Shown: positions 43,662 through 61,136 of the stretch, piece after piece
Numbering within the stretch: the first letter of the stretch is position 1
How the letters are laid out: every line of letters starts with the position of its first letter
Origin: a virus
DNA length: 64,000 bases
Direction: 5' to 3' (one strand)
Virus record (IMG/VR): IMGVR_UViG_3300045125_000085
Span: 80,007 to 144,006 of that record
The notes under the pieces: generated by a model
What the model was told of the DNA's origin: nothing
The model's input: the letters and a program-made list of their open reading frames with translations, nothing else
The model's database searches: none
Translations under genes and position numbers: made by a program

Positions 43662-43683
43662 TAGATACCTCCTATTGCTGCAT

Positions 43684-43698
43684 TATTAGTATATGGGG
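43684..43698 (-). promoter_or_regulatory. early-type promoter
   Basis: Minus strand CCCATATACTAATAATG, matching the promoter core of the small-gene cassettes, 25 nt upstream of ATG 43661. No hairpin follows here. The hairpin terminator 43721-43759 is just upstream. Confidence 0.6.
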
Positions 43699-43720
43699 AC
43701 ATACTGCATTCGACTAGACG

Positions 43721-43759
43721 GCATAGACAGAGGAGCTACTGTAGCTCCTCTGTCTATGC
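43721..43759. terminator. 19-bp near-perfect inverted repeat
   Basis: GCATAGACAGAGGAGCTAC-T-GTAGCTCCTCTGTCTATGC. Confidence 0.7.
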
Positions 43760-43763
43760 TGGC

Positions 43764-44171
43764 TTATGCATGGATGATTCCTAAATTGTAAGCTTCTTGT
43801 AGTCTAGCCTCAATCTCAATCATCAAGTAATGACCGAAAGCGTTCAGTATCGGAGTAGGCTGCTCTTCATTGACATACTGTCTAATAAACAATACGTTAC
43901 GACAATCCAGCTTGTGTAAATGATAGCCTAAATCCTACTACTGTCTGCAGCTCTTCAGGTACAGGCTGTACTCTCATACGGGTGCAGTAGCTGTAAATCA
44001 TCAGCTACATCCCCGCCTAGATAACCATCGAGGTAGATCTTAGCGATCTTAGTATCTGCTTGCAATATACCTTTCTGCTGAGTACCGTCGTATTCGACTA
44101 AGTGTAACTTAAGGTAGCGTTTCGCATACAGTGCTGAGTGGTATAGGTCTACGTGCAGCAGCAGTAGTCAT
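43764..44171 (-). CDS. hypothetical protein, frameshifted
   Basis: Starts at ATG 44171; joined text VDLYHSALYAKRYLKLHLVE, TKIAKIYLDGYLGGDVADD, RVQPVPEELQTVVGF, NVLFIRQYVNEEQPTP, ending LQEAYNLGIIHA. About 130 aa. No family recognised. Confidence 0.5.
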
Positions 44172-44227
44172 GGTATACTCGGTAAAATACGAGCACCTAT
44201 CGCTAGATGCTCGTAGAGTGCTGTTAA

Positions 44228-45070
44228 TTATCTATGGAGTTCTCTGAGATAACTACAGAATGCCATCCCTGCAGCTGTCTCGTAATCCATATCGTCCGTC
44301 TTAGCGATACGGATCACCATGTCAGGATGGTCTAGGCGCTTGATGCCGAACATCCAGGCATTTTCTTCTTTCTTAAAGCAGCTTAACATCAGCCACAGAT
44401 TAAAGCGCTTAAACACTTTATTCATAGCCTTGTTATTCCAAGCTCTAATGAAAGGTGCTACGGGTTGGTCTTTGAAGATAGGCGACATCATCATCGCCTG
44501 AAAGCCTTCTTCAGTCACTAAGAAGCTCTTAGCCATTGCATCCATGAGTGTCTGACTGACATCGTAGCGATTCAACCAAGCTTTGACGTTCTTACGTGAA
44601 ACGACCTGCTCATTATCTATCGGGTTTTGCAGGTTCTCGTAGTTCTTCAGCGTTTCATCGAGGTTGCCTTCACCGCTAGTGTTTTCAGCGAGCTTCTGAG
44701 CTGAGAGACTGTTCAGGAAGTCTATGAGGACTTGATTAGTCAGCGTATCGCCTTCAGTAGATTCCAGCAAAGCAGCCGCTACGTCTGCTGGCAACTGCAT
44801 CTGACCTGGCATCTGCGGTGGCATCTGCGGTGGCATCTCCATGCCTTCAGGTATTTCTTGAGCTATACCTTCGGCCACAATCTCAGGTACTTCCAGTACG
44901 TCAGACTCGCTAGCAGTAGACTCGGCTTTCTCCATAGGTACTTCGACAAATTCAGCATCAATGATTTCTTCATCAGGGCGGTAGGACATTATAGTAGACT
45001 CCTCTAGGGTCGTATGGTCGGTGTCGACAGATGGTCGTTTAGGGGTGAGACGGATGCGGTTAGGCTCCAT
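44228..45070 (-). CDS. acidic protein with Met/Pro/Gln linker, 280 aa
   Basis: Intact. Starts MEPNRIRLTPKRPSVDT behind AGGAGTCCTA. Residues 30-80 acidic, residues 80-100 a Met-Pro-Gln repeat (MPPQMPPQMPGQMQLP), residues 100-280 helical (LMDAMAKSFLVTEEGF, KVFKRFNLWLMLSCFKKEE). Possibly a scaffold or virion protein; unknown. Confidence 0.6.
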   Translation of the reverse strand: MEPNRIRLTPKRPSVDTDHTTLEESTIMSYRPDEEIIDAEFVEVPMEKAESTASESDVLEVPEIVAEGIAQEIPEGMEMPPQMPPQMPGQMQLPADVAAALLESTEGDTLTNQVLIDFLNSLSAQKLAENTSGEGNLDETLKNYENLQNPIDNEQVVSRKNVKAWLNRYDVSQTLMDAMAKSFLVTEEGFQAMMMSPIFKDQPVAPFIRAWNNKAMNKVFKRFNLWLMLSCFKKEENAWMFGIKRLDHPDMVIRIAKTDDMDYETAAGMAFCSYLRELHR

Positions 45071-45193
45071 TAGGACTCCTTAGTTTAAAAGCACTCATTA
45101 GCATATACAGCTTACCTAAAAATAAGGCAGCATAATACGCATCAACGCTGAGCCGACACTCAGTGCTATGCGTAAGTAATTCCAGCGTGGAAA

Positions 45194-45220
45194 AAAGGAG
45201 GCACCACGTAGGCACCTCCT
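45194..45220. terminator. weak hairpin in the 45.1-45.3 kb gap
   Basis: AAGGAGG...CCTCCTT around CACCACGTAGGCA, with an A run upstream on the plus strand (T run on minus). The rest of 45071-45289 holds only a possible 40-codon membrane-like frame (YLRIALSVGSALMRIM) that I could not confirm. Confidence 0.45.
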
Positions 45221-45289
45221 TAAGATTTCCCTTTTCTCAGAAGAAGGTAATAGCAGTAAACGTGAGCACATCTACCACTATACGATACC

Positions 45290-45929
45290 TTAGATAAAAG
45301 TAGCCATATCAAAGCCGACGATAGTGCCGCCTTCAAACGGTATCTCGGCTCCATCAGCAGCGATCGCATGGACGCCATTGATCTCTAGCTTAAAGGTATC
45401 GTCATTATAGTTAATGACGCCTGAGATATCTAAGCTCAGTTCGATATACCACATGTTCTCATGATACTGGAGTGGGCCAGGTATCTCTTCTTCTAAGAAG
45501 ACTTGATCGCCTTCCACGGTCATACTAGCTTGACTGATAGTAGTACGTACTGAGAGATCATAGCGATACTCCCAGCTCTCTGGCTGATCATTATCGACCG
45601 AGTCATGCCAGTGATCTGGTGCAGAGAAACTGTTGCTGACCCTGATGACATAGGTATTCCCTTTATCAGTCTGTACCTGCAGATAGAGAGCTGAGTAGGA
45701 GATCAGCATCTTTCTGAGTGCATCAGGATCCAGCTCGACGATCTTCTCGATCGGTATATCTAAGTTGACTTTCAGCGGACTGGTATAAGGTGCATCTTCC
45801 GGGATACTGCCTCGCCTGCAGCGGTCGTGGTTCCAACACCATGCTATCTACGAAATAATCCGCCATGTCTTCCTGGAATACAGGGTAGCAGAAAGTCAAA
45901 GCAGAAGTCTTGTAAGCGATTGTTCTCAT
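45290..45929 (-). CDS. beta-rich virion-type protein, frameshifted once
   Basis: Starts MRTIAYKTSALTFCYPV at 45929 behind AGAGAGTAATACTC. After an indel near 45810 it reads GSIPEDAPYTSPLKVNLD and DPDALRKMLISYSALYLQV, then clean to GGTIVGFDMATFI at 45290. About 213 aa, beta-strand rich, acidic. No motif. Divergent from nrdA. Confidence 0.55.
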
Positions 45930-46109
45930 GAGTATTACTCTCTTGTGGATTAAAAGGAATGAGCAGTAGGGTATGCTCATAAGTAATATATGCGTCCCTG
46001 TTTTATTTCAATATAGCACTATTTTTAAGTCAGGAACTAATGGTGTGCGACCTCATTAGTGAGGCATATTACTCATTTGTTTTCATCACGATCACATTAG
46101 GCTACACCC

Positions 46110-48956
46110 ATGTCGACACCTACTGCATACGTCATTCGCCGCAACCACACTATCGCTGAATTCGATAGTAATAAAATCTACACCGCCATAATGAAAGCCT
46201 TCTTAGCCGTAGAAGGTGATCACGCTAACGATAGCAGTCGTATCCATGACACAGTCACACGACTGACTGTAGCGATTACTGATAATCTCTTTATAGCAGC
46301 TAAAGCTTCAGTCATCACGCATAACAACCTGCCTCTCTTCGCTATCGAAGATATCCAAAACCACGTAGAACGCCAACTGATGCATAGTGACTACTACACA
46401 GTCGCTAAAGCTTATATCCTTTACCGTGAAGCCAGACATCAAGAAAGACAAGACCAACCCACATCACGCTCTTTACCGATCATACTACATACAGGTGAGC
46501 ATGCTATCTGGACTGAGCAAGATCTACATAGTAAGTTCGATAGCTTAGCAGCTGATCTTAATGACGTAGATGCTGACTGGCTGCATGAACATACTCTAGC
46601 GACTACGTTCGAGTGGATCACTGAGAAAGAACTCTACACGGCTATCATCATGCTAGCGCGTTCACGTATAGAAGTAGAACCTCAATATAGCTACGTAGCT
46701 GCGCGTGTACTCTTACTCCTGCTCCAACAAGAAGCAGTCGAGCGTGTAGTCTCAATAGAAGCTGCATCATTTTTTACAAGCCTACCTACGGCGGCTTTAC
46801 ATTATACGGCTTACTTTAGAGCGTATATTAAGCAAGCTGTAGAAAAACAACTCTTGCATCCTCGCATGCTAGAAGTCTATGGTAGTGAACTCACTAGACT
46901 AGGCGACGCTTTAAACCCTAAACGCGATCTATCCTTTACTTACCTAGGCTTACAGACACTGTACGATCGCTACTTCATCCACGATGGTGATACTCGCATA
47001 GAGTTACCACAAGCCTTCTTCATGCGTGTAGCTATGGGTCTATCGCTCAATGAGCAAGAACCAGTAGAACGTGCTATTGAGTTTTATCACTTACTCTCAC
47101 AGTTCGACTACATGACCTCTACACCCACACTCTTTAATAGTGGGACATTACGCCCTCAGCTCTCTTCATGCTTTCTTTCTACAGTACCAGATGACTTAGA
47201 TAGCATCTATGAAGCCATCAAAGATAATGCACTCTTATCTAAATATGCTGGAGGTCTCGGTAATGACTGGACATCTGTCAGAGCACTAGGTTCACATATC
47301 GTCGGTACTAATGGTAAATCGCAAGGCGTAGTACCTTTCCTTAAAGTCGTCAACGATAGTGCTATCGCTGTCAATCAAGGTGGTAAACGTCTAGGTGCGG
47401 CATGTGTCTATTTAGAAAGTTGGCACTTAGATATAGAAGAGTTCTTAGAACTCAAGAAGAATACTGGTGATGAGCGTAGACGTACTCATGACATCAATAC
47501 TGCGAATTGGATCCCCGACCTACTGATGCAGCGTGTCATGGAAGAAGGCATGTGGACATTATTTAGTCCTAGTGACGTACCTGATCTGCATGATCTCTAC
47601 GGTGCTGCTTTTAAAGCTCGCTATGAGGAGTACGAAGCTTTAGCTGAGTCAGGTCAACTCCATCATAAGCGCCTACCTGCCTTACAGTTATGGCGTAAGA
47701 TGCTGACCATGCTGTATGAAACAGGCCATCCGTGGATCACGTTTAAAGATCCTTGCAACATACGCTACACGAATCAACATGTAGGTGTAGTACATAGTAG
47801 CAACTTATGTACCGAAATTTGCTTGCATACTAATGCCGAAGAGATACGCAGTCTGCAACTTAGGTTCAGTCAATCTAGCACGTCATATACTTGAAGACGG
47901 CGGTATAGACTATAAGAAGCTAGCTAATACCGTCAAGCTCGCTATACGTATGCTGGATAATGTCATCGACCTGAACTACTACAGCGTCGATAAAGCTAGA
48001 CATTCCAATATGCAGCATAGACCTATAGGTCTAGGTATCATGGGCTTTCAAGATGCACTGTATCTAGAAAGACTTCTTATAGTTCACAAGCCGCAGTAGA
48101 CTTCAGCGATGAGATCATGTCGTACATCAGCTACTGTGCGATAGAAGCCTCCTGTAATCTCGCTCGTGAACGTGGTCCGTACAGTACCTTCGATGGCTCA
48201 CTCTGGAGCCAAGGTATCTTACCGATCCACAGCCAGCGTTTACTCATGGAGGATCGTCAGCTGACAGCAGGTGCTGACAACTGTCGTTTCAATGACGACA
48301 TCACTGACGCGAAAGCTTATGCACAGCTACTTAAATTAAGGAGACTGCCAGTGGACTGGGAGCACTTAGCGAGTAAAGTACTCCAGTACGGTATGCGTAA
48401 TAGCAATGTCATGGCTATAGCACCTACCGCTACGATCTCTAATATCTGCGGTGTCTCGCAATCCATCGAGCCTACTTATCAGAACTTGTTCGTTAAGTCG
48501 AATCTGTCTGGTGAGTTCACTATTATCAACCCGTACTTAGTAGCGGATCTAAAAGCAGTAGGTCTGTGGGATGAAGTCATGCTAAATGACCTCAAGCATT
48601 ATGATGGCAGTGTGCAATCTATAGAGCGCATTCCTGCTGATCTTAAAGCTATCTACATGACGGCATTTGAGCATGATCAGTTCTGGCTCATCAGTGCAGC
48701 ATCAGCACGCCAGAAGTGGATAGATCAAGCCCAGTCACTCAACCTCTATTTAGTGAATCCTACAGGCGTCAAGTTAGATGCACTGTATAGATTTGCGTGG
48801 CTGTGTGGTCTTAAGACTACTTACTACTTAAGGACTATGGGTGCTACACATGTGGAGAAGTCTACAGCTATGCAGCATTCTATCACTACAGTAGAGACAG
48901 AAGAGCCAGTCAAGATGTGTCTGATTAACGACCCTACGTGTGAAGCATGTCAATAA
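46110..48956 (+). CDS. nrdA: class I ribonucleotide reductase large subunit, 2 breaks
   Basis: Makes deoxynucleotides from ribonucleoside diphosphates. Start MSTPTAYVIRRNHTIAEF at 46110. N-terminal ATP-cone (residues 5-95), then GLSLNEQE, FDYMTSTPTLFNSGT, LSSCFLSTVPDDLDS (active-site Cys), AGGLGNDWTSVRALGSHI, SNLCTEI, AVCNLGSVNLARHI (second conserved Cys), and the tail NDPTCEACQ with CxxC. About 948 aa. Two single-base errors, near 47851 (extra base in GAGATCGCA) and near 48074, break the frame. The partner nrdB is not in the window. Confidence 0.93.
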
Positions 48957-48985
48957 ATTAAAATAGACTACTCGGCATAAAGCAG

Positions 48986-49024
48986 CATAGTGCCCTGAGA
49001 GCCTAGAGCTCTCAGGGCACTATG
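48986..49024. terminator. 17-bp hairpin after nrdA
   Basis: CATAGTGCCCTGAGAGC-CTAGA-GCTCTCAGGGCACTATG; same family as 14609 and 19192. Confidence 0.7.
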
Positions 49025-49034
49025 TCGACTGCTT

Positions 49035-49154
49035 TCATGCGGCCTTCTTTCTCGCTCTATTGATGCGATCGATAAGATCCAAGACGTTGGCTTCGATCTT
49101 ATCTAACAGTTTCCATGCTTCTTTAATAAGACGCTTGCGAGTGATCTCGTCCAT
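49035..49154 (-). CDS. 39-aa helical basic peptide
   Basis: MDEITRKRLIKEAWKLLDK then IEANVLDLIDRINRARKKAA. Ribosome site GAGGTCTAGGCA before ATG 49154. One amphipathic helix. It lies between the tRNA and the nrdA terminator. Unknown. Confidence 0.55.
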   Translation of the reverse strand: MDEITRKRLIKEAWKLLDKIEANVLDLIDRINRARKKAA

Positions 49155-49177
49155 TGCCTAGACCTCTATAAGAGTGA

Positions 49178-49265
49178 TGGTACCCTCAGGCCGGACTCGA
49201 ACCGGCACGCTCGTAAAAGCAAGGGATTTTAAGTCCCTGATGTCTACCAATTTCATCACTGAGGC
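49178..49265 (-). tRNA. tRNA-Leu(UAA)
   Basis: Minus strand: GCCTCAGTGATGAAATTGG, D loop TTGGTAGAC, anticodon stem CAGGGAC-TTAAAAT-CCCTTG (anticodon TAA), long variable arm GCTTTTACGAGC, T arm GCCGG-TTCGAGT-CCGGC, acceptor 3' strand CTGAGGGTA and encoded CCA. The 5' acceptor strand has one C fewer than needed (GCC-CTCA expected), a probable sequencing gap in a C run. Confidence 0.9.
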
Positions 49266-49372
49266 AGAAATAATGGGGCTACAAAATAAGTAGCCCCGAC
49301 TGACCGGGAGTGCTAATGCAGTAGTGGTGTGGCCGACTGACGTATTAGTTAAAAATACCCGCGTCTATACTA

Positions 49373-49999
49373 TTATGCACTGACATGATCTTTAGCAGAC
49401 TCACGTGCTACGGCGTTCAGCATCATCGCTACCATGCGATCTTTAGTAAACCACAGTAAGTCAGCAGGCAGAGTCTCAGCTGTCCAGGTGCTACACCAGC
49501 CGTGACGATCATACAGGCTGATGACATTACCGGCTTTACGTACATAGACTCTTACGATGCCGTCATCGTCCGTATGCCATGACCATAGATACTGCTCTGT
49601 GACGTGGTCTAAGATATGCTCACGACAGATAGCAAAGACTTTAGTCATAAGGTCTTCTTCTTTACTGACGCCGTGGTTGACGGCGTTATTGGTGCCTTGA
49701 TTATAGTTACTAAATAAATCAGGCTTATGAAAGACGCCGCAGTAATAATCAGTCGGACGGATATAGCGGGGCTGTGCCCATTTTTCTAAGTATGGAGTCA
49801 TGGTCGTATACGGTGCAAAAGTAATGGTGGTGTAATGCGTAGGTACTTTTTCTACTTTAGAGCGAGTGAGGACTTCTTCTAACATAAAGCGTTTCCTGAT
49901 TTCTAGGAGCTTGAGTCCTAAGGTAGTCTTAGGCTTATAGTCAGCTAGTTTACCGTACAGGGCATAACCAGTTTGGTAGAGTAGGTTAGGGTATCTCAT
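49373..49999 (-). CDS. hypothetical protein, 208 aa
   Basis: Intact. Starts MRYPNLLYQTGYALYGK; its ATG overlaps the TGA of the upstream small membrane gene. Text includes THYTTITFAPYTTMTPYL and WSWHTDDDGIVRVYVRKAG. Many Tyr and Trp; no family recognised. Confidence 0.65.
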   Translation of the reverse strand: MRYPNLLYQTGYALYGKLADYKPKTTLGLKLLEIRKRFMLEEVLTRSKVEKVPTHYTTITFAPYTTMTPYLEKWAQPRYIRPTDYYCGVFHKPDLFSNYNQGTNNAVNHGVSKEEDLMTKVFAICREHILDHVTEQYLWSWHTDDDGIVRVYVRKAGNVISLYDRHGWCSTWTAETLPADLLWFTKDRMVAMMLNAVARESAKDHVSA

Positions 50000-50186
50000 A
50001 ACGAGACACCTGTACCACAGAGTCTGCTTAGTGAAGCGATTACATACGGCATAAGTATTGGCTTCAGTATGAAGAGATAAACATAGATGCCGAATACACT
50101 AGCAGTTATAGCCAATGTGACAGCTTGCATAAATAAACAGGCAGTGTGTTGAAGTGGTCGATGTGTTTGTTATGGGTGGGTGGCAT
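49996..50186 (-). CDS. small membrane protein, frameshifted once
   Basis: Starts MPPTHNKHIDHFNTLPVY at 50186, one frame change, then QAVTLAITASVFGIYVYLF and ILKPILMPYVIASLSRLCG. About 62 aa with one or two membrane spans. Stop overlaps the next start. Confidence 0.5.
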
Positions 50187-50202
50187 TATGTATCTCTGAG
50201 AA

Positions 50203-50577
50203 TTAAAAGACTAAGGAAAGCTGTAGCTGGTTAGCATCAGCGAGCATCCGTCGCTGTTCCATGATAAGGTAAGAGATGGCAGGAAAGTATTCTTGATTAG
50301 CATCGATTAAATTTGCCAGACTCCGCCCTTTAAATACAGGTGCATGGAGTAATTTTAGCGGTTCTACGATATTAGCGTCTTTGAAACGTATGGTTGCCAT
50401 ATGGAACGCCTCGATGCGCCAATAGATCTTTAGACATGGTAAAGATTTACCGTCACGCCAGCGATGCATAGCTTGACGCGATATACCTAGTAGGACAGCT
50501 AGTTGAGAGATGTTAAGGTTAAAGTAGCTACGAATTTCATCGAGCTTAATATTGATGATCCGTGTCGTGTACGCCAT
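50203..50577 (-). CDS. XRE-type helix-turn-helix protein
   Basis: Intact 124 aa. Residues 10-45: DEIRSYFNLNISQLAVLLG then SRQAMHRWRDGKSLP, a Cro/CI-type HTH. The rest (LKLLHAPVFKGRSLANL, YFPAISYLIMEQRRML) is helical. Probably a transcription regulator of the early small genes around it. Confidence 0.75.
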   Translation of the reverse strand: MAYTTRIINIKLDEIRSYFNLNISQLAVLLGISRQAMHRWRDGKSLPCLKIYWRIEAFHMATIRFKDANIVEPLKLLHAPVFKGRSLANLIDANQEYFPAISYLIMEQRRMLADANQLQLSLVF

Positions 50578-50650
50578 AGGGATACTCTACGGTAAGTAAA
50601 GGTGGAAAGGAAAAGGCCCCATATGGTATCCGTATGCATGGAGATAAAAA

Positions 50651-50668
50651 AAGAGCACTCATAGTGAG
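50651..50668. terminator. short hairpin
   Basis: CACTCA-TAG-TGAGTG downstream of the minus-strand gene ending at 50680, near an A run. Confidence 0.4.
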
Positions 50669-50679
50669 TGATCTATAGT

Positions 50680-50838
50680 TCAGTGATCGCACACTAGGCG
50701 CAAAGCGTGCTCTTCATCGCAGTACTTCATAACGACCTTCCCGTGACGAAAGTCGACTGCTTCTTTTTGCCAGATCAAGCCTGTGTTGTTATCGAGGACA
50801 CCTTGCTCGGTTTCTACATAACGCATAATTAAACCCAT
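50680..50838 (-). CDS. 52-aa protein with short Lcl-like motif
   Basis: MGLIMRYVETEQGVLDNNTG then LIWQKEAVDFRHGK and DEEHALRLVCDH. The VLDNNTGLIWQ phrase occurs at the start of Lcl/DUF1566 domains, but the rest of that domain is absent. The start may also be ATG 50826. No clear ribosome site. Confidence 0.5.
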   Translation of the reverse strand: MGLIMRYVETEQGVLDNNTGLIWQKEAVDFRHGKVVMKYCDEEHALRLVCDH

Positions 50839-50887
50839 GCTGAAAAGAAAAAAAGACCGCCCCTAAGGAGCGGTCTCTGTGACTAGC

Positions 50888-51473
50888 TTAGATACGCCAG
50901 TGATTTACCTCCACAGTCACTGTATCTATTAGACTAGTCAGACCTAGAGTATTGAGCAACATCTGACATAGTTGCTGGACTGCTTCCAGTAGTTCAGCTG
51001 ACTCATACTCGACATACTCACGATCGCCGTAGTAAGGATCCTCTACCAGTTCACGCAAAGACACTAAATTATCCGGCATGATCCTAACGTGAATGAAGCG
51101 AGAATCCTCTAGGCTCACTAACTCCTTTACTCGCTTATATGCACGGACGATAGTCTCGTCTCTATACCACTGCGGATTTGAACCCATCCATGCCCTCACA
51201 TCCAGCATGAGATTATTTAAAGGAGTAGGTGAGTGGCCAGTATACCACACGGGTGACAGTCCTTACACACTTGTCAAACACTGGCAAGCGTGCCGGCATA
51301 TCGGCGATCGTCCGCACTATCCACCGTGACACGATGATCACGTCAGCTATCTCACCCATAGCCACCAGTTTATCCAGACTGGACTGCTGAAAGACATATC
51401 CTTTCTTAATTACTGAGCGGTTTCCTATGACTCGGTCTACGGTGACGGGCTCACGGTCTATAATATGAACCAC
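50888..51473 (-). CDS. hypothetical protein, frameshifted once
   Basis: GTG start 51473 (VHIIDREPVTVDRVIGN), frame change near 51240, then LNNLMLDVRAWMGSNPQ and TSLIDTVTVEVNHWRI. About 195 aa. Start lies 13 nt inside the end of the upstream small gene. Unknown. Confidence 0.55.
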
Positions 51474-51641
51474 GGATCCACCGCCATTTCACTAGACATA
51501 TCGAGAGTGGCTACAGTCCCGTCTGAAAAGACAAAGATTCAAGTTAGCCCTTGCATTCGTAAGCTGTAATTCGGTACGGGCCAAGCACATCACACGAGTG
51601 CCGTCTCTCAAAGTGATGACGGGGGCAGTTTTACCAGACAT
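51458..51641 (-). CDS. small protein of about 60 aa, frameshifted once
   Basis: MSGKTAPVITLRDGTRVM behind GAGGTAATACC, then ARTELQLTNARANL, one indel, SDGTVATLDMSSEMAVDP, ending at TAG 51458. Beta-rich; unknown. Confidence 0.5.
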
Positions 51642-51748
51642 GGTATTACCTCTTCCTGCGATTAAAAGAGAGAGCTCGGTTAAGAACTCCCGTTAAGAAC
51701 TCTCGATGATTCACCAGCTGCAATTACACGCTACAGCAGTGAGATGAC

Positions 51749-52399
51749 TCAGGCAGCGAGTGCTGCCTTCAAGTCCGCCAAGCTGACAGTTTTCCCTTTA
51801 CCGAGCACGGCCTTGGCTGCCGATACTTCGTTGAGCCGACTCCTTGGCTTCACTGTTCCGCTGCCTCAGCAGCTTCGCGTGCCTGGATTTCCTTTTCCAG
51901 GCTGACCTTTACAGCGGCTTCTTCTTCCTGAATCGCAGCCAATTCCTTTTGCGCCGCGAACAATTGAGCCAGCGTATCCTCGCTAGCTGAGAACTTAGAC
52001 TCCTCGGCATCCAGCCGAGATGCCGTGTCCTTGAACTCCGCCCTTGATCCAGGTAACTATCATGCTCATCCGTGATCTGGTCGATCAATTCCTTTGGCTG
52101 GATACGCCGCCTTACTTCCTGTAAGGTGGCCTCCCATGTCTGGGTGGGGAACCATTTGCCGTTACCCCAGTCCTGACTCCATGTCAGGACGTCATAACCT
52201 GGAGCCAGCTCCACCGTCCAGGTGGTGTGGCTCCATTTGCCTCTCTTGCTATAGCTCTCATCCAACACCCGCAATACTGGCGGTATGGATACCCTGATGA
52301 ACGGGAGTATGCCCTGCCCTGGGCACAGTATGTAATTCCGATGGTGTCGGCCACGGTGGCCCATTTGGTTGTTCAGGCGGTGGTCTTTACTTCGCTCAT
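51749..52399 (-). CDS. early-island protein with coiled-coil tail, frameshifted
   Basis: Start ATG 52399 after AGAGGTGTATC (MSEVKTTA). Joined text PFIRVSIPPVLRVLDESYS, TTWTVELAPGYDVLTWSQD, EVRRRIQPKELIDQITDE, then a coiled coil AEFKDTASRLDAEESKFSA, KELAAIQEEEAAVKVSLEK, ending SLADLKAALAA. About 217 aa. Preceded by a hairpin of the early type at 52426-52453. Confidence 0.55.
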
Positions 52400-52425
52400 G
52401 ATACACCTCTTTAGTGTAAGAAATA

Positions 52426-52453
52426 CCCTACGCATCGAGCTAGATACGTAGGG
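52426..52453 (-). promoter_or_regulatory. leader hairpin before ribosome site
   Basis: CCCTACGTATC-TAGCTC-GATGCGTAGGG (11 bp with one G:T), 27 nt upstream of ATG 52399. The loop contains GCTC like the other leader hairpins. Confidence 0.6.
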
Positions 52454-52463
52454 CGGGAGGTGG

Positions 52464-52677
52464 TCAGTGGCTGCGTAGAATCATCGAAGATGATGTGCCG
52501 CAGTCGGGATGGCCGCTGCCACCACAGTAGCCTCCGACCTGGAGGCAGGTCGGGCAGCCGTCTTCCGTGACCAGTGCCATCCTTGGCTTTACCATCGGCC
52601 TTCTGGCCAGGGCAGCGACACTGCCCTTGATGGGGTTGAGATGTCGATATTTCGACGCGTGCGGTGATAGCGCTCAT
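52464..52677 (-). CDS. small Cys-rich zinc-ribbon-like protein, frameshifted
   Basis: Start ATG 52677 (MSAITARVEISTSQPHQ) after GGAGGTAATC. Reads CRCPGQKADGKAKDG, then after one indel ALVTEDGCPTCLQVGGYCGG and GHPDCGTSSSM. Cys pairs CPTC and C-x-GHPDC suit a zinc site. About 71 aa. Second gene of the 53-kb early operon. Confidence 0.55.
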
Positions 52678-52702
52678 GATTACCTCCAAAGGTAAGAGTG
52701 GA

Positions 52703-52726
52703 CTCTAGGCCCGAGCAGACCTAGAG
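52703..52726 (-). promoter_or_regulatory. leader hairpin before ribosome site
   Basis: CTCTAGG-TCTGCTCGGG-CCTAGAG, between the first and second genes of the 53-kb operon, so this element is not tied to a promoter. Confidence 0.65.
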
Positions 52727-52762
52727 CCAAGAAAAGTTTAATCCCGTTGTTCCTTACGGTAG

Positions 52763-53052
52763 CTAGGCATCCAGCCATTTGTTTACTTCCGTATATACTT
52801 CTCCTTCTGTCATGTGGGCTTCCATGCACGGTCTCCAGTTTTGCTGGAGGTTGGGGGAGAACATCTTCTCCTCGTTATGCAGAGGTACCTCTGTACCTCT
52901 TCATTCAGCTCGAATGTCCATAACTCAATGCCTCCTCCGAGGCGTTTCTCATTACTCCGTCTATTAAATACCCATATGTCAATAGACGTAGGTGCATCTA
53001 CGTCTGAAGAGGAAGAGAATGAAGTATATTGGCCGATGATTGCGTAGCACAT
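52763..53052 (-). CDS. small early-island protein, frameshifted once
   Basis: Start ATG 53052 right after TAGGAGGTTACC (MCYAIIGQYTSFSSSSD). After an indel near 52880 it reads VPLHNEEKMFSPNLQQNW and EGEVYTEVNKWLDA, about 97 aa. First gene of the operon driven by the cassette at 53075-53160. Unknown. Confidence 0.6.
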
Positions 53053-53074
53053 GGTAACCTCCTAGGGTTAAATG

Positions 53075-53160
53075 AGTATAGATAGCTGTGTGACTTTCTA
53101 TACTAGAAAAAGTGAGTAATCTAGCCACCAGTAGGCTAAGATCATAGTAAGTATGTATAG
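53075..53160 (-). promoter_or_regulatory. early promoter plus two-hairpin leader
   Basis: Minus strand: CTATACATACTTACTATG (53160-53144), hairpin 1 ATCTTAGCC-TACTGGT-GGCTAGAT (53142-53119), hairpin 2 AGTATAGA-N14-TCTATACT (53104-53075), then CCTAGGAGGTTACC. Confidence 0.7.
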
Positions 53161-53194
53161 CTATATATCTTTTCAATCCAAGTTAAGTCGAGCA

Positions 53195-53224
53195 TATAGG
53201 CTAGTGCTTTCACACTCAGCCTAT
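53195..53224. terminator. hairpin upstream of the 53-kb cassette
   Basis: Minus strand ATAGGCTGAGTG-TGAAAG-CACTAGCCTAT with one bulge. Confidence 0.55.
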
Positions 53225-53281
53225 TGCTAAGTTATTCTAGTAGACCCCTAGGCCGTACATTAGTAGGCCCGGTAGAGTGCC

Positions 53282-53671
53282 TTAATAGGCCCAATTATGG
53301 ATATCTATGACCTTCTGATCAGCAGGAGCACGCACCGTCTCACGGGTCACAGTAAAGGCTACACAGTTTACAAAATCATCCCGTACACCTTGCTCTCTCA
53401 ATGCCGTCAGTATAGGAAACGGCAAGATCACTATGTCGGCACTATCGGCCAGTTCTTGCAGAAAAGCGATCTGATCATCCGACATCTGCATACGAGTCTC
53501 ATTGATATGCATGCCATTGACTACAGCTACTTTTCTAAACTTACGATATAGCGTCAACTTCTCTAGGACTTCTTTATCCTGGCCCTCAGACACCGTACCG
53601 TCGTTAAAGCGTAACGGCTGAGTCGTCAAAGTAATGACACGGCTACCATTATTCAGCAAATGAATTTTCAT
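53282..53671 (-). CDS. hypothetical protein, about 129 aa
   Basis: Intact. Likely start MKIHLLNNGSRVITLTT at 53671 (an in-frame start three codons earlier is possible). Text DKEVLEKLTLYRKFRKVAVV, MQMSDDQIAFLQELADSAD, ILPFPILTALREQGVRDD. No family recognised. Confidence 0.6.
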   Translation of the reverse strand: MKIHLLNNGSRVITLTTQPLRFNDGTVSEGQDKEVLEKLTLYRKFRKVAVVNGMHINETRMQMSDDQIAFLQELADSADIVILPFPILTALREQGVRDDFVNCVAFTVTRETVRAPADQKVIDIHNWAY

Positions 53672-53879
53672 GCGATACACACTCGTTTTATTAAAAAGAA
53701 AAAAGGACTGGAGCGCTAGCTAGGACTCCATACGAGTATCGCTTTATTTTCTTTATTTATAGTATGGATTTTCGTACGATGTGCTCAGCATGGTAGCAGT
53801 ACTTATAACAGACTGCTGCATGGTTAGCTGCAATGGTTGATGTATGAGCACTCGTAATGAAGTCTTCCAAAAGCAAAGG

Positions 53880-53919
53880 CATAGCCCCCTAGGCGCAATA
53901 GCTCGCCTAGGGGGCTATG
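53880..53919. terminator. 16-bp perfect hairpin
   Basis: CATAGCCCCCTAGGCG-CAATAGCT-CGCCTAGGGGGCTATG, just past the gene ending at 53924. The interval 53672-53879 otherwise holds only AT-rich sequence with a possible promoter (ATCCATACTATAAATAAAG on the minus strand). Confidence 0.7.
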
Positions 53920-53923
53920 TCGC

Positions 53924-54148
53924 CTATGCATTCGTTACAGTACCGAGACTGACTGTAGTCGGAGCCATCAGGTCATTACTAGAGATATTGAGACTATCAG
54001 TATTACTAGCAGTACCTACAGCAGTATTATCATTACCTGTCACGAACAGATTAAAGTGCACACCATCCGGAGATGCTACGAAGTACATCGTATCAGGATC
54101 GAGCTGATCCGGGAGTTGGTTAACGCGTTCCATTTTTAAGAAGCTCAT
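53924..54148 (-). CDS. small fibre-type protein, 74 aa
   Basis: Intact. MSFLKMERVNQLPDQLDPDT then MYFVASPDGVHFNLFVTGND. Same N-terminal pattern as the protein at 24742-25143 in the fibre cluster, and as short virion proteins in other phages. Placed 29 kb from the fibres. Probably virion-associated. Confidence 0.6.
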   Translation of the reverse strand: MSFLKMERVNQLPDQLDPDTMYFVASPDGVHFNLFVTGNDNTAVGTASNTDSLNISSNDLMAPTTVSLGTVTNA

Positions 54149-54161
54149 AGTAGCTTAGACC

Positions 54162-54353
54162 TCATTTGAAAAAACAATGATACCAGAATAGCCAGAGTCG
54201 CTCAAAGCCATCTTCACAGTACCAGATATAGATTTGATAGTAGATATACCGACCGATGATACAGCTGATTATAGCCAGCACTATCAGAAGTAAAAACTCT
54301 ATGCCCTCTAACCAAATAGGCAGTGAGTCTTTATGATCGTGGATATTAGGCAT
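54162..54353 (-). CDS. small membrane protein, 63 aa
   Basis: MPNIHDHKDSLPIWLEGIEF then a strong span LLLIVLAIISCIIGRYIYY and an aromatic end (ERLWLFWYHCFF). Starts 1 nt after the stop of the large gene upstream. Unknown. Confidence 0.6.
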   Translation of the reverse strand: MPNIHDHKDSLPIWLEGIEFLLLIVLAIISCIIGRYIYYQIYIWYCEDGFERLWLFWYHCFFK

Positions 54354-54354
54354 C

Positions 54355-55522
54355 TTAACTCACCACAGCTTCACTGAAGCTGATCGTGGCGTCTACGATA
54401 TCGCGGTAGAGTTTAAAGATGATTTTGAAATAAACAAAGCCTGCTGTCTGTGTAGCTAGATAGAGCAACCAGCTAAAGCGAGGCATAGTCTGGTATAGCT
54501 TAGGCATGTAGCGCAAATAATGTTCCATGCTATTCAAATACTCACCCATGGTGCGTAATATAGTCTCTATGTCGCTTTTCAATATACGCTCAAATACTAA
54601 TGGCGATTTATCAAAACTAGTGAGCTTAGTGTCAGTGATCTCGATTGCAGTTATTATCCAGATACAGCTTATCTCTAATAGAAGATTCAGGCAGGTTGAA
54701 GTTAAAGATAATGCCTTGGCCAGTAGGATAATAGACTGACTCTATCGTAATAGCGACTTTATCTTTCTTTACAGTTTTGCTAAACTCCCAGTTACCCGGC
54801 GTAAAAGGGTTACTGTGCTTATCAGCGTTGCTTTCGATCTCATCCACGATCTCAGCTAAGATCTTATCAAACCGATCATCAGACTCAGCTGTACTGATAG
54901 TCAAGAAATAATTAAGCATACCGCCACAGTTCGTACTAATGTCTTCATTAGCTCTCATGATAGCGCTGATGAAGTCTTTAATAGTGTCTACTCGGTTCTT
55001 AGTCGTAATGCCTTTGTAGCTAGTGTGGAATAATACCGGATCAGCTACCTTGATATTATCGAAACTATCCACTGGTGATGATCGCAGTTGTTTTAAAATA
55101 GCATCTATTTGCTTTTAGAAACCTTGGATGCCGCCATTGACTTCATTTTGCCAGCTTAGAAACTCCTCATGTAGTTTACCGAAGGCTTTTTTAAAGTCGG
55201 CTTCATTCTTACCTATTTGAATACCGAGCTTCATCAGCATGGAGTCGATGCCTTCTAAACTCGGTACGACTGAATCAGGTCGACAGGCGGTACCGGCGAC
55301 AGCCATGTTCGCTGCTATCCGGCATAATGTGCGGACTTCTGGGTTGTTTAAGCTTTCCTGACTGATAGATGCCTGTATCGCTTTCTGTTGTTCGATGATG
55401 AAGCCAGATCGCTTAATATCGGCTGTTAAATTTTCAATACGTTGCTCAGCCTCTAATGCAGCTACCCAGTGTGAGAGTGGGCTAGCTATCTGTAAGGCTG
55501 GCGTACGACGTGCTCGACGCAT
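54355..55522 (-). CDS. virion-type helical protein, frameshifted
   Basis: Starts MRRARRTPALQIASPLSH at 55522 (TTGAGGATACACCT). Three clean pieces, 55522-55115, 55072-54632 and 54630-54355, read as one protein of about 390 aa: LHEEFLSWQNEVNGGIQGF, KQIDAILKQLRSSPVDSF, EITDTKLTSFDKSPLVF, ending SFSEAVVS with a hydrophobic patch FSWLLYLATQTAGFVYF. Long helices, no catalytic motif; resembles inner-head or virion proteins of jumbo phages. Confidence 0.55.
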
Positions 55523-55563
55523 AGGTGTATCCTCAAAGGTGGGTAGATGTATCAAAAGCATTT

Positions 55564-55603
55564 GAAAAAAAAAGCAAGCGATCCAGAGCCCCGAAGGACT
55601 CTG
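55564..55603 (-). terminator. rho-independent terminator with UUCG loop
   Basis: Minus strand CAGAGTCC-TTCG-GGGCTCTG followed 11 nt later by a run of nine T. Ends the 57-kb early operon. Confidence 0.8.
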
Positions 55604-55791
55604 AAGGCTCACTCTCTGGAGTGCTAGATCTCGGGTTGGGCACTCAATAGGGCTTCCTTGTCCAGGCCCGTGGACCTGCAGATGTTCCGACTTGTCGCAG
55701 CGAGCACCCTGCCCAGTTTCCGCACACATCCAGATTACCTTCCAGATAACCTTACCACAAAACCCGGCCAAGGAATTTCACCTTAGCCATA
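55600..55791 (-). CDS. small Cys-containing early-island protein, frameshifted
   Basis: MAKVKFLG at 55791, one indel, then GFCGKVIWKVIWMCAETGQG and ARCDKSEHLQVHGPGQG. Possible C-x-C/C-x-H zinc site (WMC, ARCDKSEH). The exact end before the terminator is uncertain. About 60 aa. Confidence 0.4.
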
Positions 55792-55958
55792 TCGAGACAG
55801 ACCTTTTCCAGCTTCTAACACGCGGACGTTGCTCCTGCCAGACACCTCCAAGGATGCCGGTTGATCTCCGAAAACCCACCGAGCGAAGATAGGTAGAGCT
55901 GAGAAAATACCGATAAATTAGCTAGGGCGTCCGTGCCCCCTGAAAGCTCCGCCAGCCC

Positions 55959-56397
55959 CTATCTCTTTATCCAAAGCAGGCTGATTCCCTCAATCCCTTT
56001 CTGGGAAGGGGTCCTCGGGGGTGCCAATCTTGCAAGGCTCTTTACTCTCCGATACTGCTTCCCCACATACTTTCCATCCTTGCTGCACCGTATAGGCAGC
56101 TTTCTCCATATTCCCTCGTTTATCCAGCCGTACTCCGGCAGGATTTCTTCGGGTGCGGCTAATCGCCACTCCGAGGACTCCAAACCTTCTACCGGAGTAT
56201 CAAAATCCACAGGTCCTACCTTCCCTGTTATCTAAAGCATCCTTGTCCTTCCTTCGTCTAGCCATTTTAACGAGCCGTACCACTTAGGCTCGTACTTTGG
56301 CCTGCAGCCGTAGCCGCTGCCATCGACTAGCCCATACTCCCATCCTTGGAATCTGGTGGTATTCAATATTTCCTCTAATGTTAAAACTGTGCGTCAT
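55959..56397 (-). CDS. early-island protein(s), frameshifted
   Basis: Start ATG 56397 directly after TAGGAGGTGACT (MTHSFNIRGNIE). Joined text FQGWEYGLVDGSGYGCRPK, KWYGSLKWLDEGRTRML, then VDFDTPVEGLESSEWRLAAP and ILPEYGWINEGIWRKLPIR, ending ISLLWIKR at 55959. One gene of about 145 aa with two breaks, or two adjacent genes. Second gene of the operon that starts with the metallopeptidase. Unknown. Confidence 0.5.
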
Positions 56398-56423
56398 AGT
56401 CACCTCCTATTTAGGTGCTGACC

Positions 56424-57001
56424 TCATGCCCGAGCAGCAGCGGTATTGAAAAGTTGATTGATATACACCCTACAACCGCCTTCCATGTAGTACGGCTTAC
56501 TGGCCTTCCTTGACGCATAAGCATCCGATACCGGATTACCCCCAAACCAACTAACCGTGACTTCTCTGTAAAGCAGTTGGAATATCCTTGGCCATAACTG
56601 AAAATATACGTTCAGCACGACAGTCGGCCATAACTCCACAGGTTGTCTAATGGCCGACCCCCACCAACACCTGAGTATCGCCGTGATCGCATCCTTGGTC
56701 GATACCCCGTTCTCAACAGAGTATAGATCTGCCATACATTCCCTTACCGACGGCAGTAATCTCTCCAATCCCTGCGGCTTCTCTCCATGGTGACCGAGCA
56801 ACTTATGCCCGATCTCGTGGAGAATAACGAATCTAAACTGCTCTTCCGTGAGTCTTTCTAAAGCCTCGCGTGAATTGTCACGCTGCCGTCTGAATTAAGG
56901 GCACCCCCTCCGCTTTCCTTAATGAAATCAATATCGTCCGTGACCGTAACATTGAGGTTAAGCATATTTACCAGTGATGCCAATACTTGAACATTGCTCA
57001 T
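56424..57001 (-). CDS. HExxH zinc metallopeptidase-like protein, frameshifted once
   Basis: Start ATG 57001 right after GGAGGTGTATT (MSNVQVLASLVNMLN). One indel near 56880 joins GSVTIHAR to LTEEQFRFVILHEIGHKLLG. HEIGH gives the two zinc His and the catalytic Glu; ECMADLYSVENGV about 25 residues on gives the third ligand, as in IrrE/ImmA and related gluzincins. Then two further helical segments, ending FNTAAARA. About 192 aa. First gene of an early operon. Might cleave a host regulator or defence protein; target unknown. Confidence 0.75.
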
Positions 57002-57029
57002 AATACACCTCCAAAGGGCATATGTTAAC

Positions 57030-57110
57030 TCTACCAACTTGAGCAGTCTGGTAGAATAGAAAAAGGTTTACGATCTCAGCAGTAGGCTAAGATCATAAGT
57101 AGTATGTAGT
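57030..57110 (-). promoter_or_regulatory. early promoter plus two-hairpin leader
   Basis: Minus strand: CTACATACTACTTATG (57110-57094), hairpin 1 GATCTTAGC-CTACT-GCTGAGATC (57095-57073), hairpin 2 TCTACCA-GACTGCTCAAGT-TGGTAGA (57055-57030), then GGAGGTGTATT. Confidence 0.75.
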
Positions 57111-57146
57111 GCTGTAAAAAACTCCAATGTAAGCAAAAAGCATAAG

Positions 57147-57176
57147 AGCCCAGAGAGCACGATGGCTCTCTGGGCT
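57147..57176. terminator. 12-bp hairpin, CATATAGCCC family
   Basis: AGCCCAGAGAGC-ACGATG-GCTCTCTGGGCT, between the gene ending at 57220 and the 57-kb early promoter. Confidence 0.7.
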
Positions 57177-57219
57177 ATATGATCGATTAGCTTATGCTGC
57201 CATCTCCAGCTCAAAGTGA

Positions 57220-57694
57220 TCAGACTGGTTCGTTTTCTTTACGTGCATTCCTTCGCTGTCTACGTAGCTGGTTCATGTACGTAGTGATCCTTTTCATGGG
57301 CGACTTTAGACTGCGATCCTGCAGTACTTCCCTAGGGATAATACCCCAGTGAGTGTAGTCTGGCTCACCATCGATCTCCCTGACTTGGATCGATACGCCG
57401 ATATCACTGACCTCCGCCACGACATCATTGTCGTAAAACGCGGAAGTACATAGTACCTATCTCCACTAGCAGATGACTGCTGTCATAGAGTCTTCTTTTA
57501 TTGAGCTGAAATCTTTGGTAGATTAGTCTACCGATAGGGATCAGCACATCCCACTTAAAGTGATATTGAAAGAAGTTCCTTTCTACTACGAGCCCTTCAG
57601 GACTCAGATGAAAGTGCATTCCGTCGCAATCGAACTCTAAGTCCCTGAGTATAAACTCCTTAGTTTCTACTGCATTGATTTCTTGGTTTGACAT
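57220..57694 (-). CDS. hypothetical protein, frameshifted once
   Basis: Starts MSNQEINAVETKEFILRD at 57694; near 57430 one indel joins VEIGTMYFRV to FYDNDVVAEVSDIGVSIQV; ends RRNARKENEPV. About 158 aa. A beta-rich first half and a basic C-terminal helix (MNQLRRQRRNARK). Unknown. Confidence 0.55.
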
Positions 57695-57741
57695 GACTGC
57701 TATGCTCCGCTATTATTACGGTTTAAGGAAAAGCTAGATAC

Positions 57742-57961
57742 TTACAAAGGAAAGCTGTGAGTATCTAATACGTTACCATGAGCATCCAGCCTTTGGATGA
57801 TCAGACTATTTGCACTATACTCATTCCGCCATCTAGCATCTCTAATGAGATCAGTGATGACGTCACGATTGCGCTCGAAGCAGGCTTTATACTTCAGTCG
57901 TTCTTTAACGACGTTGGCGACTAAAGCACTGTCTTCTCTGCTTTAAAGAGTATCTGGACAT
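57742..57961 (-). CDS. small protein of about 73 aa, frameshifted once
   Basis: MSRYSLKQR at 57961 (GAGGTAGTTT), one indel, then SALVANVVKERLKYKACFE, NRDVITDLIRDARWRNEY and LDAHGNVLDTHSFPL. Preceded by an early-type promoter. Unknown. Confidence 0.5.
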
Positions 57962-58002
57962 AAACTACCTCATGGTAAAAAGGTGCTACGCTCATTCGGT
58001 AG

Positions 58003-58018
58003 CATTAAAAGTATATGC
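58003..58018 (-). promoter_or_regulatory. early-type promoter
   Basis: Minus strand GCATATACTTTTAATGC, 40 nt upstream of ATG 57961. No leader hairpins. Confidence 0.5.
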
Positions 58019-58067
58019 ACTTGTAATTAAATGCATTCCATACTAACATAGCGTAAAAAATATCCAG

Positions 58068-58105
58068 CATATAGCCCTGAGAGCACGATGGCTCTCAGGG
58101 CTATG
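58068..58105. terminator. hairpin after capsid gene
   Basis: CATATAGCCCTGAGAGC-ACGATG-GCTCTCAGGGCTATG. Confidence 0.7.
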
Positions 58106-58159
58106 TGGCGGCTAGCCTAGATTACTAGTAGTCTTACGGCACTACGTGGTAGACGTGGC

Positions 58160-60344
58160 TTAAGGTACCACGTGGTTATTCACAGACAGCGGTACCTTGT
58201 TGAGTACATCAGGTACATTTTCTACCGTCAGTACAGCCATGATAGGCAGATGACTCACGTGCAGGAAGCGCGGACTGACCGCGATTTCACGAGAGATCTG
58301 ACCGTCACGTGAGATCGGCAGTACCAGAGTCAGTTCAGGACTCCACGCCATGTTACCGAAGTTCAACGGATTCGGCTCTACGTTACGGTTTTCATCGAAT
58401 ACGCCAAAGGTAATGAAGATCTTACCTGAGACGCGATGATCCAGCGTAGATACGATACGTACGTCGAACTGACCACCCAGCGTACGCAGATCGCCAGTCA
58501 CCGTCAGGTAACGAGCCAGTACCGGATCAGTACCGATGATGACGGTGGGTACCGGAGAGATACCGCCATTCAGAGCATCAGCTGCCGCTTTGTATTCAGA
58601 ATCCCGATACAGGCGATAGGCATGGTCACGGATCTTATTGATGATAGCGTTCTGCAGATCTTCTACACGGCTGGTCGAAGTCAATGAATCGACGATGGCA
58701 GACATGTCCAAGAGTTTCTTCAGAGAACTTAGGCAGCACGTAGAAGCGACCTACACCGAGTACGTCCGGCGGAGTGTTGTTGCCATCTCTAGCGTCGATA
58801 TAAGTACGCAGGATGTTAGCGGTATTGATCAGAGCGCCTACAGCCATATTCGAGGTACGAATACGAGTAGCGGTAATCAAGCTAGCCAGATCACCAGCAT
58901 CCGACTGACCGTCCATAGTCATGGGGTGGATAGCCGTAATCGGCGAACGCATCTGCACGTTGTACAACTGAGTGTAGTACGTGGTGTCGATCAGCTGACC
59001 GCGTTGACGACGGTTGATGTTGGTACGATAGGCTTGGAGTTCATAACCTATCACTTTACCACCGTTAGCAAACAGATCAGCCAGAGTCTTGCCTACGCCA
59101 GACTTCAGATCCAACTGGTTGCCAGCAGCATCAGAGACGCTGTGGATAGATACGTCATTGCCATAGACTGCGCAATCACCGAGTTCGATGTTGACTTGGC
59201 CAGACAGTACCAGCTTCAGACGTACGATCAGGTCGCCAGACTTGACGCCACCCAGAGCAGCCAGAGCACTACCGTCGAAGTTCTTAGTATCTTTGTTCAC
59301 CAGCACCGAAGTGGTAGAGAAGTTCAGATACATAATGCGATAGTTGTTTTGCTGTGCGTAAGCAAAAGTAGCCAGCGGCAGTTCATTCGTCATGAACTTC
59401 AGCACGTCAGTATGACCAGCGCCATCATCGACAGATACATACACGGTCGACAGGCGGATAGCCGGATCGATCGAGTCAGTAATGTCCATCAGACCTGAGG
59501 CCAGCAGAGTATCAGTCTGGCTGATACCCAGCAGTGACAGCGACTTACCTACTGCCAGAGGAGCAGTCGGAATGGTTTCGCCTTCCAGGTTCAGGTTATA
59601 AGGAGCTACCAGAGCGCTGTCTACAAACATCGCTTCAGATTCCGGACGATGTACCGGGATCAAGCGAGTCATTTCGTTCTTCAACAGAGTGTAGTCTGCG
59701 ATAGCACGAATGATGTTTTTCTTGTTGTAGTTATCCAGCGCACCAGAGATCTGACGATGCAGACCATTGTACACCATCATTAAACGGACAGTCACGCCGA
59801 AGCCGACGTTATCCGGAGTCACTACGATGGTGGGGAAGAAGGTTTCGCCAAATTCGTCCTGACGAGCCGCTTGCATGTTGTAAGCGATCGAGTAGACGGC
59901 AGCGTTACGGTTTTCCCGTTCGTCATAAGCTTCAAATGAAGGACGGACACCGACTACGTCATCCATGCCTAATCCAGTCATATTGACGATAGACATGTTT
60001 TCAGCAGCGATAGCAGGCATCTTCAGCCTTATGTGACAGGAACTGACGTACGTCACCTGCTAACAGACCTGCTGCAGTAGCTGCATCTTTCTGAGCCTGA
60101 GTCATTTCACCGCGCATACCGAGTTGGTCTGCGATTTGTTCTACGGCGATAGACAGACCTTCAGCTGCAGTGTTCAGCATATCTACTTGGTCGCTACGGA
60201 TAGATTCCATCGCCAGCGCAGCTGCTGGTTACAGCCGGGTTAGCATACTGATGGGTATCCAGGGATCTGACGCAGTGACTGCACTACCGTCTGCAACGGA
60301 GTCGGTGCACTGTGTCCTTGCAATTTCTTTTGGAAAAAAGACAT
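58160..60344 (-). CDS. major capsid protein candidate, frameshifted
   Basis: Starts MSFFQKKLQGHSAPTPLQ at 60344 (GAGGACTACAC) and ends PLSVNNHVVP at 58160, about 725 aa, which is the size of phiKZ-type capsid precursors. Breaks near 60240, 60010 and 58690. N-terminal 100 residues are helical (DMLNTAAEGLSIAVEQIAD), a likely cleaved propeptide with A-x-E sites. Core: GVRPSFEAYDERENRNAAV, GETFFPTIVVTPDNVGFGV, MTRLIPVHRPESEAMF, LKLVLSGQVNIELGDCAVY. Clean 1.4-kb frame in the middle and the smaller head gene directly upstream support the call. Confidence 0.65.
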
Positions 60345-60440
60345 GTGTAGTCCTCGTAAGTTATAAAAGAGAAGAGTAGTGTGCTACATAGAGTATGAAC
60401 ACATATGGCCGTGAGTGGGTCGTGATGGATACCCTGCAGG

Positions 60441-61136
60441 CTATTTAAAGCTAATGTCAGGTAATCTATAAATACCGGCGTATGACAGACGTCACCCACT
60501 GGTACGAAGCCGTAGAGCGCTTTCAGGTAATCCGAGACGAAGCGGAGTGCGTACGTCCTATCCTGAAGCGCGTTCAGTATGCCCGGTTTAATATGAAGAT
60601 AGTATTGACGCGTAGGCGCCAATTCAAAATGGTAGTATTCTTCGCCATCGTCGATGTCAGCTAGTACTTTAGCACTGCCGTCACCGCTGTTAGTGCTCAT
60701 GAGTTGAGCACGCGCTTCATTCTTAATAGCTTCAGTCATAGCCGCAGGACTGATGACGGTGCAGTATTCTACATCTTTATAGGCTTCACTACCGCCGACC
60801 TGACCAGCCATGCCCCAGCCATCACTCATACGCTGCGTATTCGCTAAGTATGGGCCGAAGAAGTTAATGCGTTGAAGAGCAGTCAACATGATTAAGTCAT
60901 TGACCGATAGGATTTTGCGTAAAGCCTTGTAATCACTAATGGTGTTCGTAGGGACTTTAGCTAAACGAAATGCCTCTCTTAACCAGCTAGGTATGACATA
61001 GCCGCGCGGCATAAAGCTCGCCTGCATACATCTCCATGTAAGTAGCATACGGTGCTTTTAAGAAAGGGTTGTAAATCTGCATACGCCCCGACGGACCTTT
61101 ATCGAGATACGTCGCCTGTGAGTCATGATAGGCCAT
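60441..61136 (-). CDS. head protein upstream of major capsid gene, frameshifted
   Basis: Starts MAYHDSQATYLDKGPSGR at 61136 right after GGAGGTCGCCACTT. One indel near 61030 joins ATYMEMYAGE to FMPRGYVIPSWLREAFRL; then NDLIMLTALQRINFFGPYL and YYHFELAPTRQYYLHIKPG. About 230 aa; the 3' end is uncertain (a stop at 60441 needs one indel). Paired with the capsid gene, as gp119 and gp120 are in phiKZ, from memory. Confidence 0.55.

Follow-up and report, generated by a model that had tools for sequence, protein, structure and literature searches.

Source phage and reading frame of the window gene

The stretch of DNA analysed here (64,000 nucleotides, referred to as the window) forms the final 64 kb of a virus record with 144,006 bases in total. 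On its minus strand, between positions 56424 and 57001, it carries a small gene with the motifs HEIGH and ECMAD, which we refer to as the window gene. The features of this gene, of the sequence preceding it and of its intact second copy, located at another place in the contig, are as follows.

57147..57176, minus strand: terminator-like hairpin AGCCCAGAGAGCCATCGTGCTCTCTGGGCT with a T-rich stretch, upstream of the window gene
57091..57110, minus strand: promoter-like AT-rich motif, consensus ATATAnTAAnnATGAnC, here ACTACATACTACTTATGATC (matrix search)
56999..57094, minus strand: 5' leader, a repeated element that runs from GATCTTAGCC to the ATG (103 bits with covariance model R1)
57072..57094, minus strand: leader hairpin 1, GATCTTAGC CTACT GCTGAGATC (folding and alignment)
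57028..57057, minus strand: leader hairpin 2, a 10-pair stem of variable sequence (covariation)
57007..57012, minus strand: Shine-Dalgarno sequence GGAGGT (sequence)
56861..57001, minus strand: N-terminal coding segment MSNVQVLASLVNMLNLNVTVTDDIDFIKESGGGALNSDGSVTIHARL, 47 codons and then a stop, with Shine-Dalgarno sequence and ATG
56862..56873, minus strand: frameshift junction, net -1, one base short compared to the collinear paralogue
56424..56873, minus strand: C-terminal coding segment, 149 aa, with HEIGH and ECMAD, in the -1 frame
G000:C1:32048-31554 (L010:12048-11554), minus strand: intact paralogue, 164 aa, with HESGH and ELEAD (second HExxH + ExxAD match)

The window encodes a major capsid protein of the phiKZ family (Pfam PhiKZ_MCP, E 5e-126), whose closest relative is that of Burkholderia phage FLC9 (46%); close relatives were not found in the viral contigs searched with it. 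Near the capsid gene a phage polymerase family is encoded, and the genes at the polymerase position in FLC6 and LucasX are annotated as RNA polymerase beta subunit. The phiKZ-type capsid, FLC9 as nearest phage and the phage polymerase family together identify the record as part of the genome of a phiKZ-like jumbo phage, which fits the lytic phage assumed in the original prediction. Compared to the ORFs of FLC9, about 62 frame changes were counted in 65 kb of aligned sequence with 60 ORFs (~1 per kb), an approximate count that includes some antisense shadow ORFs. Hereby, the breaks affect genes, most of them essential, that FLC9 has in one piece, namely those for capsid, ribonucleotide reductase, sheath and polymerase; examples in the window are the regions 58160-61048 and 46110-48956 (capsid and ribonucleotide reductase). 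The contig seems to carry many small insertion/deletion errors, and at about one frame break per kb in genes that its relatives have intact, its ORF-based annotation is unreliable.

The window gene itself is divided between two frames. The ATG frame (MSNVQ...TIHARL, followed by a stop) encodes 47 residues from position 57001, while FVILHEIGHKLLG and ECMADLYSV both sit in the -1 frame (56873-56424, minus strand). Because the ATG frame stops and the part with the motifs is open in the -1 frame only, a single ORF of 190 aa is absent from the sequence as it stands. The protein of about 190 aa in the original prediction, which had overlooked the frameshift, is nevertheless recovered when the gene is read across the junction with one unknown residue, yielding 192 aa that are collinear with the paralogue; the N-terminal segment is likewise collinear with the N-terminus of the paralogue. 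Inclusion of this segment raises the Pfam M48 score from 16.5 (C-terminal part) to 20.6 bits, with a match that begins upstream of the junction, which argues that both segments belong together. As frame breaks are found throughout the contig, the capsid and ribonucleotide reductase genes included, the most likely cause of the break is that the assembled sequence lacks a base, and one break in a gene of 0.58 kb equals the number expected from the frame-change density of the contig. Programmed frameshifting, for which a -1 shift would be needed, was set aside: it is unlikely because a canonical slippery heptamer is not visible at the junction, and breaks occur all over the contig.

Promoter-like motif, leader and genomic setting

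The window gene starts 93 bases below the promoter-like motif. Using a wider promoter matrix, 22 sites were found, all on the minus strand, compared to 0-1 in shuffled sequence, and a core matrix gave 27 minus-strand sites versus one on the plus strand. Comparable sites of the core matrix were not found in FLC9; the promoter motifs thus differ between the two phages. In phiKZ-related phages, the early promoters of the virion polymerase are conserved AT-rich motifs, with transcription starting about 6 nt downstream (PMC5312081; also PMC7598289). Upstream of the motif, the terminator-like hairpin sets the unit of the window gene apart from the genes on the capsid side. Further terminator-like hairpins, almost identical in stem sequence, lie between genes at record positions 117097, 118533, 138072 and 142885.

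Downstream of the promoter-like motif follows a leader that is repeated in the contig. Its layout comprises the AT-rich motif, the GATCTTAGCC hairpin, a covarying second hairpin, GGAGGT and the ATG, and occurs in eight strong and six weaker copies. The strong leaders lie on the minus strand at 57094, 1555, 37567, 53143 and 63820 of the window as well as at L009:5509, L009:1976 and L011:2288. With an E value limit of 1, covariance model R1 detects 14 leaders, every one on the minus strand of the present phage; eight of these were used to build the model. In hairpin 2, 87.5% of the cells are paired and both sides have changed in six of the ten pairs; its covariation score amounts to 0.650, compared to 0.304 after shuffling and at most 0.143 when slid. 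GAGGT is invariant in all eight aligned leaders. The leader was not found in FLC9 with model R1, the exact leader 24-mer is absent from all other viral contigs searched, and an Rfam match around the window gene was not found. A leader-type promoter is also present at L010:17054 (minus strand), before an ORF starting with MPIFSKKGLLAIAMTLFASTTSASP, whose signal-peptide-like start makes an early secreted protein possible. The leader may serve the stability, translation or export of early mRNA. It moreover offers, as a repeated and covarying element, a handle for finding the early genes of this phage group from sequence alone. The original prediction had placed the window gene as the first one behind an early cassette; this position is borne out by the promoter-like repeat and leader immediately upstream, and early expression, a good prediction as judged from these elements, is probable.

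In FLC9, a distance of about 430 bp separates the capsid gene from the next conserved gene. In the window, the homologues of the two are found at 58160 and 43569, and ~14 kb of other genes, among them the window gene, lie in between. This interval (43569-58160) stretches between the capsid gene and the RNA-polymerase region; its genes, which include ribonucleotide reductase and a tRNA-Leu, are missing at the corresponding place of FLC9. A counterpart of the window protein was not found when FLC9 was searched with it, nor does the inventory of HExxH ORFs in FLC9 contain a small ORF corresponding to the paralogue. The only zincin-like HExxH ORF of FLC9 encodes 438 aa (L024, minus strand, ITLHEVGHLFTGFEYL) and is unlike the window protein; it may represent the conserved zincin described for jumbo phages of group 1. 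Homologues of the zincins were not found in FLC9, LucasX and FLC6 or in prokaryote genomes. A tblastn search of P0001 and P0004 in phages gave chance-level matches only, and searching viral contigs with both, singly and as an alignment, did not reveal a homologue.

Zinc-site motifs, paralogue and predicted fold

The gluzincin-type site of HExxH plus ECMADLYSV, the starting point of the original prediction, was confirmed in that both motifs lie on the minus strand within 56424-57001, with 22 residues from the second His of HEIGH to the Glu of ECMAD. HExxH alone constitutes no evidence here, since four occurrences were seen in contig ORFs of 60 aa or more versus 2.1 expected. The combination HExxH-(8-40)-ExxAD, in contrast, exceeds chance, with two occurrences in the contig versus 0.025 expected from residue-shuffled ORFs. 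In the paralogue, ELEAD follows 30 residues past the second His of HESGH. Both proteins share 26% identity in a whole-length alignment, and the C-terminal segment matches the paralogue with a BLASTP E value of 8e-6 over 112 columns. Despite this low identity, both copies retain the His, Glu and His of HExxH together with the Glu of the third ligand. The paralogue is preceded by a related, diverged copy of promoter and leader, the latter matching model R1 weakly (E 0.96).

All family scores lie near threshold: with Pfam Peptidase_M48 (PF01435; cut-off 20.3 bits) the paralogue scores 22.5 bits and the read-through window protein passes narrowly at 20.6 bits, while with Pfam M78 (IrrE/ImmA) the window protein, at 19.4 bits for its C-terminal segment and 18.9 bits when read through, remains under the cut-off of 22 bits. 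The C-terminal segment alone yields E values of 1e-3 (Pfam M78), 8e-3 (M48) and 1e-4 (PHROG 87, 'metallo-protease'). Matches to the SprT-like profile (E 0.14 and 0.11) and in NCBIfam were insignificant. Searching the PDB with a two-sequence profile retrieved, in register, the selecase MJ1213 (E 0.003) and projannalysin (E 0.06). Hereby, residues 44-80 of the query aligned with residues 44-80 of the selecase chain, i.e. with identical residue numbers. The hydrophobicity of a membrane helix is not reached by any 19-residue stretch.

The AF2 model of the paralogue, of moderate confidence (pTM 0.67), shows the order helix-strand-strand-active-site helix-glutamate helix, with strands 20-24 and 47-51 ahead of the active-site helix 60-75, which carries HExxH, and with the glutamate helix at 96-113. 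Foldseek comparison of this model with the PDB placed selecase at the top (probability 0.98, E 0.15), followed by projannalysin and, at lower rank, BlaR1 and ZMPSTE24; an E value of 0.001 was reached by no match. The best viral fold matches include M48 proteins, and an IrrE-like protein of PBS1 is among the weak ones. The model of the window protein, made from its C-terminal part, was poor (pLDDT 47, without the N-terminal strands) and was therefore left out of the fold search. We file the protein as M48/minigluzincin-like, with a tentative fold assignment, and the window gene adds to an already known kind of phage zincin.

Proposed role and comparison with known systems

Taken together, we propose, with a probability of roughly 0.6, that the window gene encodes a soluble M48/minigluzincin-like early endopeptidase, which may act on a host protein. 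The protein, ~192 residues long, would be a soluble zinc metallopeptidase built on a minimal gluzincin core, in which an N-terminal helix and strands precede the HEIGH active-site helix and the ECMAD glutamate helix. HEIGH would provide two zinc ligands and the catalytic Glu, and the Glu of ECMAD the third ligand; a lineage-specific C-terminal helical part, common to the paralogue, would end the protein. The gene would open a unit read from the class of promoter used by phiKZ-like phages for early transcription by the virion RNA polymerase, and the protein is therefore proposed to be made at the start of infection. Its most likely task would be to cut one protein, or a small number of them, in the cytoplasm of the host as part of takeover or counter-defence. 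Motifs, paralogue, family scores, promoter and leader repeats and, at moderate confidence, the fold of the paralogue come from the computations, while peptidase activity, early timing and a host substrate are what we infer. The existence of a second, diverged copy suggests two substrates. In a wider picture, put forward tentatively, the phage would produce two diverged minigluzincin proteases within the first minutes after infection, and these would contribute to host takeover by each cutting a different host protein.

The frame break invites the reading of a decaying gene, in which the frameshift would be real, the window copy dead and the function kept by the intact paralogue; the improbability of programmed shifting at a junction without a visible slippery heptamer points the same way. 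Since mostly essential genes that are intact in FLC9 are broken at similar density in the contig, however, the break says little about decay, and the copy still has its promoter, leader and ribosome site as well as the two zinc motifs, so that we consider decay unlikely. The broken frame would also be compatible with a catalytically dead zincin acting through partner binding only, which the conservation of all four zinc-site residues in two copies with 26% identity renders very improbable. A relation to IrrE/ImmA (M78), as put forward in the original prediction, would imply a protease or sensor acting on a transcription regulator. M78 does appear among the weak Pfam matches (E 1e-3), the ImmA-like PADLOC models capP and peptidase_U41 match with E 3e-4 to 2e-2, and the PBS1 protein is one of the weak fold matches. 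Yet the score stays under the curated M78 cut-off (18.9 versus 22 bits), whereas M48 passes, and minigluzincin/M48 proteins are the closest neighbours among solved structures and by fold. Moreover, the third-ligand motif of M78 is ExxAN, while that of the phage proteins is ExxAD, as in M48, and a helix-turn-helix partner beside the window gene was not found among the neighbouring ORFs, which, with their frames broken, gave no Pfam match above cut-off. The IrrE/ImmA relation thus gave way to M48, and we regard it as rather improbable.

A protease for virion maturation or head processing, as suggested for the conserved zincin of group 1 jumbo phages, would fit the position of the window gene beside the major capsid gene and the extensive processing that phiKZ-type heads undergo (cited in PMC7824862). 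The early-type promoter and the small size argue against this role, as do the absence from FLC9, where about 430 bp separate capsid and next conserved gene, and the different nature of the single zincin-like HExxH ORF of that phage (438 aa); we hold it to be highly improbable. A host-directed role fits better, because the gene is lineage-specific, duplicated and predicted to be early and its context is not virion-like. The same argument has been made by Iyer and colleagues for other jumbo-phage zincins (PMC7824862). The original prediction held that a host factor could be inactivated; for jumbo-phage zincins of patchy distribution this had already been proposed (PMC7824862).

The finding is ordinary-looking but useful, as place and promoter make an early host-directed role plausible. 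We know of no function for most early genes of phiKZ-like jumbo phages, nor, in this group, of an earlier demonstration of an early host-directed protease. With these two small zincins, each behind an early-type promoter, there are concrete candidates for a takeover or counter-defence by proteolysis, and the intact paralogue could be expressed directly.

With regard to known systems, IrrE/ImmA (M78) proteins have a gluzincin-like HExxH helix in common with the window protein but differ in the third-ligand motif (ExxAN versus ExxAD). Jumbo-phage zincins, including SprT-like ones (PMC7824862), are likewise small and patchily distributed, occur in more than one copy per phage and have been proposed to cut host proteins, although the SprT-like zincins were reported in group 2.2 phages (PMC7824862), whereas the present phage is phiKZ-like. 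M48 proteins such as HtpX and ZMPSTE24 have the HExxH + ExxAD ligand pattern in common with the phage proteins, which, however, lack transmembrane helices and match only 42-43 of the 186 positions of the Pfam M48 profile. The minigluzincins selecase (MJ1213, PDB 4qhf-4qhj) and projannalysin (4jix) share the small soluble core and a matching HExxH helix context; they are the nearest solved structures both by sequence and by fold, with modest E-values, and comprise about 110 aa compared to 164-192 aa for the phage proteins, which add the C-terminal helical part.
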